Assembly (NCBI RefSeq): GCF_000321415.2
Contig: NC_019902.2
Coordinates: 3,038,001-3,102,000 of the forward strand
DNA length: 64,000 nt
Origin: Thioalkalivibrio nitratireducens DSM 14787
GTDB lineage: Bacteria; Pseudomonadota; Gammaproteobacteria; Ectothiorhodospirales; Ectothiorhodospiraceae
Direction: 5' to 3'
Shown: positions 38,130 through 43,968 of the stretch, in pieces
Position numbering within the stretch: the first letter of the stretch is position 1
Layout: the number at the start of each line of letters is the position of its first letter
Made by a program: the position numbers and the translations under genes
Notes under the pieces: generated by a model
What the model was told of the DNA's origin: nothing
Seen by the model: the letters and a program-made list of their open reading frames with translations, nothing else
The model's database searches: none

Positions 38130-39643
38130 CAGTGGCCTCCCTGCGGCGTACCGCGCACGGAGCAGGCGAGCGCCTCGATCGGGCCGCGCGCATTGCAGTC
38201 GCGCACGATCTGCAAAGTGTGCAGCAAACCGCGCGCCGACAGATCCTGGTAACGGCTGTGCAGTGCACGGTCCACCCGTTCGCAATGCGCCACCGCGCGC
38301 TCGCGCGAGCCCGGTACCTGGCCGTGATAGTCGTAGCGCACGACCACCGGCACCGGCAGACCATGGGCCACATTGAGCCGCGAGCCGATCTTCACTCCAA
38401 CGTCGAGATCGGGGGCCGCTTCCTCGACCGTGTCCATGTAGGCGAAATAGGTCAGGTTGCGCAGCTGGATCTCCTCGAAACCGATTCCGACGCCGATGAA
38501 GCGCTCGGCGTGACCGACGTCGGCGTAGCGCCCGTCGTGGTAGCTGCGCACGTAGTCGATCTGCGACAGATTGTTCGCAATCAGCCGTGCCGCCAGCCGC
38601 GCCATCCCGTCGGCGACGCCCGGCGCGGACGCCTTCACGCGCTCCAGGATCCGGGCTTCCGCCTCGACGGCCGGCAGGCGCACGGTGTCGGCATACAACG
38701 CCTGCGCCTCCACGCCCGTCTGCGGGTCGACGCGTCCATCCGCACCGGGCACATGCACACGGATCGCGTCGGTATCGGTATCCATGCCGATCAGCAGCAA
38801 ATCGATCGATGCGCCACAGCAGAAGCTGTTCTGCACCGCCTGCTGGAATCCAAGCAGGCGTTCCAACCCCGCCTGCGCCGCCTTTTGCTCGTCCGATCCG
38901 TGCGCCGCGCAGCCCTCATGCTCCGGGTCGCTCGAGCTGTAGTGGTACACCACCGCCTTCAGGTACCGGGTGGGCGCATCCGCCGTATTCGGGCGCCCTT
39001 CCCGAAACCGCAGCATCTCCGTCTCGACCCATTTCTGCAGACTGTCCTCGATATCGAACAGCGCGCCCGCGTAGGACTTGCGTCGAACCGCGCGGTAGGG
39101 GAGCCGGAGCACGTAGCGGATCACATGGGCCAGCCGCCCGTCCGCGCAGGGCGACACGTCCAGGGTATGGAAACCACAGTCCTGCAGGAACGCCTGGAAC
39201 GCATCCTCGTCGCCGGACCCCAGCGGATCATCAGTAAAGAACTCGTCGCAGAACCGGCGATACGTCTCGAACACGCACCACGCGAACAGCCGCCGCATGT
39301 CGAGCTGTGTCACCCAGGCGTCCCCGAGAATCTCGGGCGGCAGCTCGAACCCGAGTTGCTCGCGCGCGATCGCCTGGGCCCGCATCTCGAAGTTCTCCTC
39401 GTGCTGCAGACCGGACAGGCGCTTCAGCACCGGCACGATCGTGTCGAAGGAGTCCTTTACACGTCGCTCGTACGCGAACAGATAGGCGTTCTCGTCCCCC
39501 TGCGTCAGCGGGTGCAATCCCCGCGTCACTCCACCTCCGACGGACGGGCGGGCTGAACGTCGCGGGGCCACCGGGGCGGGCGCGGACGCCGGTCCCTGGG
39601 ACCAGAACAGCGGGCGTGTCGATTGACGGCGGCCAGGAAGCAT
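38129..39643 (-). CDS. csoSCA: Carboxysomal carbonic anhydrase CsoSCA
   Basis: 504 residues, the usual length for this beta-type carbonic anhydrase (CsoS3). Converts bicarbonate to CO2 inside the carboxysome. The zinc ligands line up as C166, H234 and C245, with D168 and R170 in SPCADGR as the Asp-Arg dyad. The 11-residue spacing of the His and second Cys equals that of the Halothiobacillus enzyme. N-terminal about 45 residues are basic and Pro/Arg-rich, the part that binds Rubisco in related enzymes. Starts 18 bp after csoS2 with a GGAG site. Confidence 0.96.
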   Translation of the reverse strand: MLPGRRQSTRPLFWSQGPASAPAPVAPRRSARPSVGGGVTRGLHPLTQGDENAYLFAYERRVKDSFDTIVPVLKRLSGLQHEENFEMRAQAIAREQLGFELPPEILGDAWVTQLDMRRLFAWCVFETYRRFCDEFFTDDPLGSGDEDAFQAFLQDCGFHTLDVSPCADGRLAHVIRYVLRLPYRAVRRKSYAGALFDIEDSLQKWVETEMLRFREGRPNTADAPTRYLKAVVYHYSSSDPEHEGCAAHGSDEQKAAQAGLERLLGFQQAVQNSFCCGASIDLLLIGMDTDTDAIRVHVPGADGRVDPQTGVEAQALYADTVRLPAVEAEARILERVKASAPGVADGMARLAARLIANNLSQIDYVRSYHDGRYADVGHAERFIGVGIGFEEIQLRNLTYFAYMDTVEEAAPDLDVGVKIGSRLNVAHGLPVPVVVRYDYHGQVPGSRERAVAHCERVDRALHSRYQDLSARGLLHTLQIVRDCNARGPIEALACSVRGTPQGGH

Positions 39644-39661: not shown

Positions 39662-42016
39662 TCAACCCCGGGCCCCTCCCGAGTAAGTCACCAGCGCGCC
39701 CCGTTCCGTGTTGCCACTGCCACCGGTCACCTTGCCGACGGGCGGAGGAATGTCCTCGTTGCGCTTCGGCACCGGCTCCGGCGGCATCGCACTCATCGGG
39801 CCTCCCCGACGCGTCGGATTGCGCCGCATCGCCGAGGCCCCTTCGGTACCGGTCACGCGGTCGCCGCGATCCCAGTCGTCGCCAGTGATCCGGACACCGC
39901 CATCCATGCCCTCGCCGGTCACCCGGGACTTCACTCGGCCCCCGACGGTCTCGGCGGTCGCTGGGATGGCGTTGGCGTCCGCGTTCGCATTCGTCGGAGA
40001 CGACATAACGCCGCGTCCGAAGCGAAATTCCTCGGTGCCGGTAACCTTTCCCGTGGCCATGCCGAACGGACCGGTGATCTGGCCCTGTTCATAGCGGGTG
40101 CCGGTCACGGCGCCGGTGATCTGGGGCGCAACGGCGGCATGCGACGGCGCTATCACGCTGAACTGCTCCCAGGGCTCCCTTTGCCCCGCGACCGGCTGTG
40201 GAAAATCCGGGCTGCCGGGCTCGGCCGGCGTCGCCGGGCAGACTTCAGCGAACTGGTCCGCACCCACGTACGGCGTGCCGCTGACCGGTTCGCAGGCGCC
40301 CTTGGCTGCGCCCGTGATCGGGCCGCCGATCCCGGGCTGGATGCCGGTGAGCGCGGGACCTGGCGTCGCACGCTGAGGCCGTGTGCGCGCCTGGCTCGTT
40401 TTGGTCTCGCCCGGCTCGCAATAGCCGCGATACTGCTCGACCCCGGCGTAGGGCGTACCGGTAATGGCGTTGCAGGTACCCGGTTCATCACCGGTGACCT
40501 TCCCGGAGCGCCCCGTCAGGGTTCCGGTGACGGCCATGCCCTTGAACGTCTGCGACAGACCGACCTTCTCGTCCTCCGGCGCGGGTACCGATTCGCAGAA
40601 ACTCTCGAAATGCTCGCTGCCCAGGTATGCATCACCAGTCACATTACGACAGCTTCCGGGTTCGTCGCCGGTGACACGCTCGGAACGGCCGACCATGGTG
40701 CCGGTCACCGCCCCCCCCCTGAAGGTGGTTGTCGTCCCGACCTTCGCGGGCGCCTGGCCATTCCCCTGCTGCATGTACTGCGTGCCGGTCAGTGCCCGGT
40801 TAGCACCAACCTCGTCACCCGTGACGCGTTCCGAACGGCCAACATTGCTGCCGGTCACGCTCTTGCCTTTCTGGCTCTGGGCCACCGTGATCTTGCCGGC
40901 GGCCGGCTCCGGGCGAACCCCGCAAAAGGCATCGATCTTGTCGGCACCGAGATACTCGGTGCCGGTGACGCGCGCACAGGTGCCGGGCTCGTCGCCGGTA
41001 ACCCGGGTACTCCGACCCACCTCGTTGCCGGAAACCCGGTTGCCGTGAGAGGTCGGGCTCACCCCGACTTTCCGCGGCGCCGTCGTCGGTTCCGTCTGAC
41101 AGAAGTCGCGAAAGATTTCGGCACCCATGTACTCGGTGCCGGTCACCGGATTGCAGGAACCCGGTTCGTCCCCGGTGACGCTGCGGCTGCGCCCGACCAT
41201 CGTGCCGGTCAGGTGCTGCCCGTACGCGGTCTCGCTGGCACCCACTTTCGGGGGCGCGTCCTTCCGGCTCTTCTGCGGACGCACGCGCCCGCAGGGCTCA
41301 GCTTTTTTTTGGCCGGCATTGCCGGTGCGGCTGCGCTGCTCGCGCAGCGCCCGGGCCAGCTCGCGCCCGGACAGACCCGGGTTCGTCGCCCGGGCGGTCT
41401 GCGCAGTCGTCATGCCGCGGGGGCTCAGGCCGGCCTTGCCGCGCGCCGACTGTGCCTGCCTGCGGGCCAGCGCCACCGCCCGGCTGGTATTCGCCACCAC
41501 CGGTTTCTTGCCATTGGGGCGGACCTTGGTCCGCGCCGCAGACCGCGCACGCACCGCAGGTGCGCTCTCGCGAGCAGAACGCGCTTCCGGCGCTGTGTCC
41601 TTCTCACCCTTGCAGCCGCAGCCACAGCCGGAACGCCCGTCATCCTTCGGGTTCGCCGGACCCGCCGGCGGCTGTACGTCAGCCGCCGTCCGAGTGCGGT
41701 CCGCCTGCGAGAGGCCTGCCTTGCCGCGATTGGACATCGCCTCGCGTCGCGCCCGGGACGCCGCACGTGCCGCGGGCATCATCGGCTGCACGGAACGGCC
41801 CGAAGCGACCGAGCGGGACGTGCCGGCGCCGGCAGTGCTCGCGGCACTGGCAGCCGGACGGGCCGCGGGCGCACTGGGGCTGGGACGGGGGTGCGCGGGG
41901 GCCCCGCCGCTGTGCGTGGGTGTCTTCGTCAGTGCGGCCTTTCCGGCTTCGGAAAGGGCGCGCCGCCGGGCCATGGATGCCGCCCGTGCGCTGCTGCTGT
42001 GTGAAGGTCCTGCCAT
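39662..42016 (-). CDS. csoS2: Carboxysome assembly scaffold CsoS2
   Basis: 784-residue disordered scaffold joining Rubisco to shell. Start at ATG 42016 (MAGPSHSSSARAAS); an in-frame GTG at 42064 lies inside the 30-bp palindrome and is less likely. N-terminal region has four Rubisco-binding repeats (about 15-29, 88-102, 182-197 and 215-231; core RRxAxSxxGKAGL). The middle region has about six repeats with VTGDEPGxC and VTGTxYxG motifs and paired cysteines. The C-terminal region ends GKVTGGSGNTERGALVTYSG, the conserved shell-anchoring end. A Cys triad (131, 133, 135) sits between N-repeats 2 and 3. A run of eight A at codons 236-238 with a downstream hairpin is described separately. Confidence 0.96.
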   Translation of the reverse strand: MAGPSHSSSARAASMARRRALSEAGKAALTKTPTHSGGAPAHPRPSPSAPAARPAASAASTAGAGTSRSVASGRSVQPMMPAARAASRARREAMSNRGKAGLSQADRTRTAADVQPPAGPANPKDDGRSGCGCGCKGEKDTAPEARSARESAPAVRARSAARTKVRPNGKKPVVANTSRAVALARRQAQSARGKAGLSPRGMTTAQTARATNPGLSGRELARALREQRSRTGNAGQKKAEPCGRVRPQKSRKDAPPKVGASETAYGQHLTGTMVGRSRSVTGDEPGSCNPVTGTEYMGAEIFRDFCQTEPTTAPRKVGVSPTSHGNRVSGNEVGRSTRVTGDEPGTCARVTGTEYLGADKIDAFCGVRPEPAAGKITVAQSQKGKSVTGSNVGRSERVTGDEVGANRALTGTQYMQQGNGQAPAKVGTTTTFRGGAVTGTMVGRSERVTGDEPGSCRNVTGDAYLGSEHFESFCESVPAPEDEKVGLSQTFKGMAVTGTLTGRSGKVTGDEPGTCNAITGTPYAGVEQYRGYCEPGETKTSQARTRPQRATPGPALTGIQPGIGGPITGAAKGACEPVSGTPYVGADQFAEVCPATPAEPGSPDFPQPVAGQREPWEQFSVIAPSHAAVAPQITGAVTGTRYEQGQITGPFGMATGKVTGTEEFRFGRGVMSSPTNANADANAIPATAETVGGRVKSRVTGEGMDGGVRITGDDWDRGDRVTGTEGASAMRRNPTRRGGPMSAMPPEPVPKRNEDIPPPVGKVTGGSGNTERGALVTYSGGARG
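41273..41310 (-). promoter_or_regulatory. Candidate programmed -1 frameshift element in csoS2
   Basis: On the coding strand, eight consecutive A (41310-41303) read CAA AAA AAA GCT in frame, giving an A AAA AAA slippery heptamer. Eight bases later begins a 9-bp stem with a CGTG tetraloop (arms 41294-41286 and 41281-41273; one G-U pair). A -1 slip would read AGC TGA, a stop after one extra residue, making a 239-residue N-terminal product. The layout parallels dnaX. Transcriptional slippage on A8 is an alternative. Confidence 0.5.
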
Positions 42017-42097: not shown

Positions 42098-42442
42098 TCA
42101 GCCGCGGCCTTCGTAAACCACGAAAGACGCGCCCTGGGTCTGGGCGTAGGCGTCGTAGCCCAGCAGCCGGATGTGGTGATCCGGATAGGCGCGGCGGCAG
42201 GCCTCGAGTTCGGCGACCACGTGGCCGAGGTCGGTATCGCCGAAGAACGGCAGCTTCCACATCGGCCAGTAGTGATTGAACGCCTTGCTCGGATGCTCAT
42301 GCTCGATCGCCGGGGTCCAGCCCTGGGCGATGATGTAGGCGATCTGCTCATGCACTTCGTCCTGTGAGAGCTTGGGCAGGAAGCCGAAGGTTTCGAGCGT
42401 CTGGGCAGTCTGGTAGTCGCCCATTTCGTACATGGTTGCCAT
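42098..42442 (-). CDS. cbbS: Rubisco small subunit, form IA
   Basis: 114 residues. Small subunit of the carboxysomal Rubisco L8S8 enzyme. Family features: [40 protein letters not shown] and the [21 protein letters not shown] end. Starts at ATG 42442 with AGGA upstream (a second ATG three codons in). 55 bp after cbbL. Confidence 0.97.
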
Positions 42443-42497: not shown

Positions 42498-43913
42498 TCA
42501 GCCGACGTCCAGCTTGTCCACGGTCTCGAACTCGAACTTGATCTCTTTCCAGGTTTCCATCGCGATCGCGAGTTCCGGGCTGTGGCGGGCGGCATCGGTC
42601 AGGATCTCGCGCGCCTCGCGCTCGAGCTCACGACCCTCGTTGCGCGCCTTCACGCAGGCCTCGAGCGCGACGCGGTTGGCGGCGGCACCCGCGGCGTTGC
42701 CCCAGGGATGGCCCTGCGTGCCGCCACCGAACTGCAGCACCGAATCATCGCCGAAGATCGCAACCAGTGCCGGCATGTGCCAGACGTGGATACCGCCAGA
42801 CGCCACCGCGAACACACCAGGCATCGAGCCCCAGTCCTGGTCGAAGAACACGCCGCGGGCGCGGTCTTCCGGCACGAATGCTTCGCGAAGCTGGTCGACG
42901 AAACCCAGCGTGGAATTGCGGTCGCCCTCGAGCTTGCCGACCACGGTTCCGGTGTGCAGGTGGTCACCGCCGGACAGGCGCAGGCACTTGGCCAGCACGC
43001 GGAAATGGATGCCGTGCTTCGGATGACGGTCGATAACCGCGTGCATCGCGCGGTGGATGTGCAGCAGAATGCCGTTCTTGCGGCACCACTTGGCCAGACC
43101 GGTGTTTGCGGTGAACCCCCCGGTCAGGAAGTCGTGCATGACGATCGGCATGCCCAGTTCCTTCGCGAACTCGGCGCGTTCGTACATCTGCTCGGGGTCC
43201 GGGGCGGTCACGTTCAGATAGTGGCCCTTGCGCTCGCCGGTCTCGGCCTGCGCCTTCATCACCGCCTCGGCGACAAACTCGAAACGGTTCTGCCAGCGCA
43301 TGAACGGCTGCGAGTTGACGTTCTCGTCGTCCTTGGTCAGGTCGAGACCGCCGCGCAGACACTCGTACACCGCACGGCCGTAGTTCTTCGCGGACAGACC
43401 GAGCTTCGGCTTGATCGTCGCGCCGAGCATCGGGCGGCCGTACTTGTTCAGCTTGTCACGCTCGACCTGGATGCCGCTGGGCGGGCCCATGCAGGTCTTG
43501 ATGTAGGCGATCGGGAAGCGGATGTCTTCCAGACGCAGGTGCTTCAGCGCCTTGAAGCCGAAGACGTTGCCGACCAGCGAGGTCAGCACGTTCACGATCG
43601 AGCCTTCCTCGAACAGATCGAGCGGGTAGGCCACGAACGCGTAGAACGATTCCTTGTCGCCAGGCACGTCCTCGATGCGGTAGGCACGGCCCTTGTAGTA
43701 TTCGAGGTCGGTCAGCAGCTCGGACCACACGGTGCTCCAGGTGCCGGTCGAGCTTTCCGCGGCCACGGCTGCGGCCACCTCTTCGCGGGGGACACCGGGC
43801 TGACCGGTGACCTTGAAACAGGCCAGCAGGTCAGTGTCGAGCGGGACATAGTCCGGGGTCCAATACTTTTCCCGGTATTCCTTGACACCGGCTTCATAGG
43901 TCTTAACTGCCAT
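42498..43913 (-). CDS. cbbL: Rubisco large subunit, form IA (carboxysomal)
   Basis: 471 residues from ATG 43913, with CAGGAG upstream. Carboxylates ribulose-1,5-bisphosphate. The catalytic GATIKPK (164-170), the carbamylated lysine K194 in [11 protein letters not shown], loop 6 [10 protein letters not shown] and GGGTQGHP are all intact. The gene order with cbbS and csoS2 makes it the carboxysomal form IA enzyme. First gene of the carboxysome operon, preceded by a 326-bp control region. Confidence 0.98.
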
Positions 43914-43968
43914 GGTCGACTCCTGCTTCAATTACTGGATGGAAGTGCCGATCGAACCTGCGCGAAGT

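Follow-up and report, generated by a model that had tools for sequence, protein, structure and literature searches.

Programmed -1 frameshifting of csoS2, the gene for the carboxysome scaffold, has been described in Halothiobacillus neapolitanus (CsoS2A/CsoS2B), where a slippery heptamer and a 3' structure, with no 5' Shine-Dalgarno sequence, give rise to a full-length and a C-truncated product. The cut is reported to fall late, as the original prediction had stated, at residue 570 of 869 in repeat 6, and the last 3 amino acids of the short form come from the -1 frame (PMC5009743, PMC11365436). The short form is reported to be made at about 1:1 with the long form and not to be essential (PMC11365436), and frameshifting was predicted for csoS2 in 79 of 162 species by Chaijarasphong et al. 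2016, as cited in PMC5009743. In E. coli dnaX (gamma/tau) the heptamer A AAA AAG is combined with a 5' Shine-Dalgarno sequence, a 3' stem-loop and a single codon before the stop, and frameshifting is reported at ~50% (PMC5009743); A AAA AAA is reported to be less slippery than A AAA AAG in E. coli (PMC5009743). In Thermus thermophilus dnaX the slippage is transcriptional and occurs at a nine-base A/T homopolymer (PMC5009743), with both other frames stopped soon after the run.

Here, a candidate -1 frameshift signal is described in a csoS2 gene of Thioalkalivibrio that lies, flanked by Rubisco and CsoSCA genes, in the window, i.e. the whole 64-kb stretch of DNA analysed (Table 1). Residues 178-593 of the product match Pfam CsoS2_M (E 4e-171). 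Codons 236-239 read CAA AAA AAA GCT (Q236 K237 K238 A239), an A8 run in which the X XXY YYZ heptamer of codons 236-238 is A AAA AAA in frame; the hairpin, 9 bp closed by a tetraloop, stands 8 nt 3' of the run (arms CUGCGGGCG/CGUCCGCAG, one G-U pair, loop CGUG), and a -1 slip leads to one codon (Ser) and then TGA, all as originally predicted. In dnaX-type frameshifting the stimulatory 3' structure is expected about 5-9 nt downstream. The proposed likeness to dnaX stands for the layout, A-rich heptamer, potential 3' stem-loop and one codon before the stop, but not for two features of the E. coli gene: upstream of the A-run, where the sequence is CACCGGCAATGCCGGCC, no AGGAG-like Shine-Dalgarno stretch was seen by eye, and the heptamer is the less slippery A AAA AAA rather than A AAA AAG.

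Table 1. Positions of csoS2, its neighbours and the sequence elements discussed (window coordinates unless a locus is named).
Feature	Position	Strand	Remarks
csoS2, 784 aa, carboxysome scaffold	39662..42016	minus	ATG at 42016
Rubisco large subunit gene	42501-43931		flanks csoS2
Rubisco small subunit gene	42101-42442		flanks csoS2
CsoSCA gene	38132-39643		flanks csoS2
Short-product coding part, residues 1-238 + Ser, -1 frame stop included	41298..42016	minus	predicted
A8 run	41303..41310	minus	in-frame heptamer A AAA AAA at 41303-41309
-1 frame codons AGC TGA (Ser, stop)	41298..41303	minus	kept in L103
Spacer GCTGAGCC, 8 nt, heptamer to stem	41295..41302	minus	one L103 change, GAG to GAA
9-bp stem, CGUG tetraloop	41273..41294	minus	arms 41286-41294 and 41273-41281; L103 nucleotides identical
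Small 5' hairpin CCGGC-AAT-GCCGG, directly upstream of A-run	41313..41325	minus	seen in 141-nt fold; lost in L103
G9 tract, AGG GGG GGG, second in-frame homopolymer of csoS2	40711..40719	minus	-1 extension 22 codons
C CCA AAA element	L108, L112, L115, L119, L122, L124-L127		e.g. L108:1646-1735
G GGA AAG element	L104-L107, L109-L111, L113, L114, L116-L118, L120, L121, L123		e.g. L105:1151-1240 minus

The short CsoS2 predicted from a -1 slip has 239 residues, a mass of 24.2 kDa and a pI of 12, and the domain layout of csoS2 bears out the earlier placing of the predicted cut, after the N-terminal repeats and before the M-repeats. The gene, the -1 direction, the slippery heptamer with a potential 3' structure and the missing 5' Shine-Dalgarno sequence are shared with H. 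neapolitanus, as would be the pair of full-length and C-truncated products, the short form being only predicted in the window species. The heptamer differs, however, the structure is a simple hairpin, and the predicted cut precedes all M-repeats, whereas the H. neapolitanus short form, cut in repeat 6, keeps most of them. No report of a short CsoS2 product was met for the lineage of the window and its sister in the literature searched.

The A8 run in csoS2 exceeds chance. It is the sole A8 in the 64-kb window, and 9 of 100 dinucleotide shuffles contain one. Given QKK, the probability of CAA AAA AAA is 0.0025 on the codon usage of 37 window ORFs and ~0.009 on that of 253 ORFs sampled over 400 kb of this genome; in this sample AAA AAA encodes 1 of 53 KK pairs against 3.3 expected. 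A/T runs in the sample comprise one of 9, one of 11 and none of 8, with a single A/T run of at least 7 inside its ORFs. Among 249 in-frame X XXY YYZ heptamers in those 253 ORFs, 6 meet a -1 stop within one codon, and none of the 6 has a hairpin as stable as that of csoS2; equally stable hairpins occur at 2.1% of random in-frame positions in the sample. The genome's own dnaX, checked as a yardstick, has no A-run or dnaX-type signal.

The hairpin alone is weaker evidence. Folded by itself, the 34-nt hairpin reaches -16.7 kcal/mol (z -2.0, 9 of 200 shuffles equal or better), and other folds are preferred in pieces of 64 nt (z -1.5, 16/200 shuffles as good) and 141 nt (z -0.6, 53/200); in longer context the 9-bp hairpin yields to alternative folds in both window and sister. 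Equal stability is found in 10% of window recodings at 36 nt, 2.3% at 54 nt and 8.4% at 81 nt, and in 17%, 40% and 57% of those of the sister at the same lengths. For calibration, the homologue of the Halothiobacillus element, tested in 4 of the 9 genus loci, is likewise modest: its stability is matched by 0.9 to 4.6% of recodings at 54 nt and is not unusual at 36 and 81 nt. A serious rival is that the element is incidental: CAA AAA AAA would have been fixed in a conserved QKK by drift in an ancestor shared by the two sisters, the GC-rich coding of PCGRVRPQ would fold unaided, and any slippage would be low, unprogrammed noise. Consistent with this, hairpins as stable as that of csoS2 arise in 8.4% of synonymous recodings (n = 5000).

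The sister, locus L103 of genome G011, is the single close relative compared, and the whole signal is carried by these two sequences only. L103 keeps the A-run, the spacing, the -1 stop and every stem base; since no base has changed, the stem is without covariation. Gene-wide, 263 of 674 conserved degenerate codons (39%) differ synonymously between the two, with rates of 0.48 in the 33 codons before the element and 0.22 in the 46 after it. Within codons 236-249 there is one synonymous change in 14 against 5.7 expected (P(<=1) 0.0034, codon-type rates from the rest of the gene), namely the spacer change listed in Table 1, with which the TGA is retained. The test is a fair one because the region had been fixed beforehand by the original prediction. 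For an incidental origin it counts that csoS2 has other stretches just as conserved, such as codons 287-303: 19 of 661 14-codon windows equal it and 4341 of 5000 shuffles contain at least one, so the element was rejected as the gene's best-conserved window, being one of about five such stretches. In noisily matched ORFs of the region (60 pairs, shadow frames included), AAA was kept in 27 of 43 AAA/AAG pairs and CAA in 41 of 70 CAA/CAG pairs, and the chance of keeping all three codons by descent is therefore ~0.2. Against an incidental origin, the genome uses AAA AAA sparingly, and yet it was kept here together with the stem. A sequencing slip in the length of the run is unlikely, since two separate genomes have A8 and the frame stays open on either side of it.

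More distant relatives lack the full signal, which again fits an incidental origin. In the best 80 of 247 csoS2 loci, KK stands at the site in 22, encoded by AAG AAG in 8, AAG AAA in 7, AAA AAG in 2 and AAA AAA in 5; one or both Lys codons are thus AAG in 17 of the 22. A AAA AAR occurs at or beside the site in 3 of the 80. The first, L007, is the only one of the five AAA AAA loci with A8 (GAA AAA AAA), an occurrence of the run alone in a distant locus that also speaks for coincidence; L007 has a -1 extension of 13 codons, and its hairpin is weak, at -6.7 over 34 nt. The second, L023, has A AAA AAG, a -1 extension of 152 codons and a 34-nt fold of -8.5, and the third, L068 (Prochlorococcus), has A AAA AAA one codon off, a -1 extension of 1 codon and a fold of -5.7. 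None of 7 family loci (order search, 47 genomes) has KK at the site, nor the A8 signal. In a class search 20 of 369 genomes gave a match, counting that of the window, and A8 is absent from the 10 motif-bearing loci among the 11 fetched, two of which may share their genomes with L003 and L004; L150 and L153 have CAG AAA AAA at the site. The family, class and 80-locus comparisons reject a family-wide A-run. The expectation that run, spacing and stem would be kept while codons drift accordingly holds in the sole close relative and fails beyond it, and the A8 element, if a signal, would be young or lost in other lineages. The early -1 stop is in part explained by the conserved [A/S]-E dipeptide, and so comes partly free under drift; xxT GAR is found at the site without an A-run in L010, L014, L016, L150, L152, L153 and L157. 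Two csoS2 copies, L004 and L006, are present in one metagenome bin (JASJBY), and genomes G386 and G285 have two csoS2 matches each.

Slippage could also occur in RNA polymerase at A8, as in Thermus dnaX, which seems improbable here. One added A would give a product of 239 residues and one lost A a product of 268, and both other frames do close soon past the run, at these lengths in the window and at 246 and 275 residues in the sister. The window also has a small hairpin 5' of the run, and a 5' nascent-RNA hairpin is reported to stimulate slippage at a Roseiflexus element (PMC5009743). This hairpin, however, is lost in the sister, and the conserved part of the element lies 3' of the run, which better fits ribosomal stimulation. 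High levels of transcriptional slippage have been reported at 9-base runs (PMC5009743), and one study reports no detectable slippage by E. coli RNA polymerase with fewer than 8 A (PMC6260861), which places A8 at the threshold for this enzyme. The window run, of eight bases, falls short of the 9 or more A/T expected for homopolymer slippage, and it lacks the conserved 5' hairpin expected with a shorter run. Ribosomal slippage is favoured over transcriptional slippage because the conserved part is 3', the 5' hairpin is not kept and A8 is at the polymerase limit.

A neighbouring homopolymer, equally odd in the window, is not kept, which counts in favour of the A8 signal. The G9 tract is the longest G/C run in the 64-kb window, and unlike the A8 element it is lost in the sister, where the codons are CGT GGT GGC and 8 of 12 surrounding degenerate codons differ; it is absent from the sister and 39 proteobacterial relatives alike. 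It was rejected as a true CsoS2A-like site and is possibly a mutable or slippage-prone stretch.

The csoS2 A8 element can tentatively be regarded as a retained, lineage-restricted -1 ribosomal frameshift signal, and this reading and incidental drift are nearly equal in probability. It is partly supported by the rare codons, the conservation in the sister, the known csoS2 frameshifting in Halothiobacillus and the retention of other known or candidate slip sites within clades of the genus. A ribosome on CAA AAA AAA GCT would meet A AAA AAA in frame with a potential hairpin 8 nt on, and the tandem tRNA-Lys would slip by -1 as the hairpin slows the ribosome. Some ribosomes would then stop at residue 239 and the rest would make full-length CsoS2. 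The share of short product would probably be modest, since in E. coli A AAA AAA is a weak site when no 5' Shine-Dalgarno sequence accompanies it. The released product would be a very basic N-terminal domain carrying the Rubisco-binding repeats without the shell-contacting M- and C-regions, and such a free domain could bind Rubisco untethered to the shell and so tune packing.

Other csoS2 genes of the genus carry different slip sites. A search of 30 genomes, the window's included, matched 26, these being the window, G011 and 24 others. The csoS2 of the 24 is of a different, Halothiobacillus-like type, and in a tree of 56 sequences these loci form two clades, one of 9 and one of 15, separate from window and sister. 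In the same tree the csoS2 of window and sister is nearer to genes from other Gammaproteobacteria and from cyanobacteria than to those of its own genus, which suggests that the gene or operon was replaced or transferred. A Halothiobacillus-type site was not found in the window csoS2, from which C CCA AAA is absent; the heptamer is also absent from 39 proteobacterial relatives. Nine of the 24 other genus loci have C CCA AAA with a 3-codon -1 extension, in all cases as AAC CCA AAA ATG, in agreement with the published Halothiobacillus facts. A synonymous-suppression scan of these 9 genes places the best window exactly at C CCA AAA (p 0.001), and in the folded alignment 3 of 20 predicted pairs have both partners changed. 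Two of these compensatory pairs lie in the stem adjoining the site, and one of the two is broken in 2 of the 9 loci. This result provides the method with a positive control.

The remaining 15 of the 24 loci are without C CCA AAA. In all of them xxG GGA AAG lies between repeats 3 and 4, and the -1 frame past it runs for 17 codons in 13 loci and for 1 codon in 2. An 8-bp stem, GGAGCGCC/GGCGCUCC, with further helices inside, is found 6 nt past the heptamer. In the suppression scan of the 15 loci, 0 of 2000 permutations were as low as codons 538-549, where the distal arm is located; two other scan windows reached <=0.0005, both at the gene start. The scans treat sequences as unrelated, ignoring kinship, and cover genus ORFs up to the ends of the fetched loci, where they were cut, so that the last part of these genes lies outside the scan. 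Covariation was rejected as support, since a single pair has both partners changed, a number attained in 286 of 500 shuffles; being uninformative, it leaves the 15-locus structure to rest on synonymous suppression. At 81 nt, 5 of 9 loci tested fold better than 95% of recodings and 4 do not, and at 36 or 54 nt none of the 9 does. G GGA AAG and its stem are likely, on this comparison, to be a second kind of csoS2 frameshift element, and they form a better supported candidate than the A8 signal of the window. A literature search, which did not cover Chaijarasphong et al. 2016, found no paper on csoS2 frameshifting in Thioalkalivibrio.

In a separate part of the gene, at the TGPF motif in the C-terminal domain, mainly of cyanobacterial loci such as L034, L038 and L060, the heptamer C CCU UUY is present. 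It occurs in 26 of the 81 loci aligned, 20 of them cyanobacterial and 6 Thiocapsa-like, and in 17 the -1 frame meets TGA at once. Among the 41 TGPFD loci, Phe is encoded by TTT in 31 against 15.5 expected from own-gene usage, kinship being ignored.

A bolder proposal, and a doubtful one, is that one genus holds three unrelated -1 elements at three places in csoS2, C CCA AAA in repeat 6, G GGA AAG between repeats 3 and 4 and A AAA AAA at the N/M border, each kept within its clade, and that frameshifting is mobile in evolution. If true, the M-repeats of the short isoform would number five to six, about three or none according to lineage, and how many contacts the short scaffold makes with the shell would be an evolving setting. 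For the role of the short CsoS2 isoform, lineages with different short forms would be natural experiments. Were the short form the Rubisco-binding domain only, as predicted for the window lineage, or one that stops after three M-repeats, as predicted for the 15-locus lineage, Rubisco binding would be separable from shell binding, and whether the isoform ratio controls packing, size or shape could be seen. This is of relevance to the transfer of carboxysomes into other hosts, where the isoform ratio may count.
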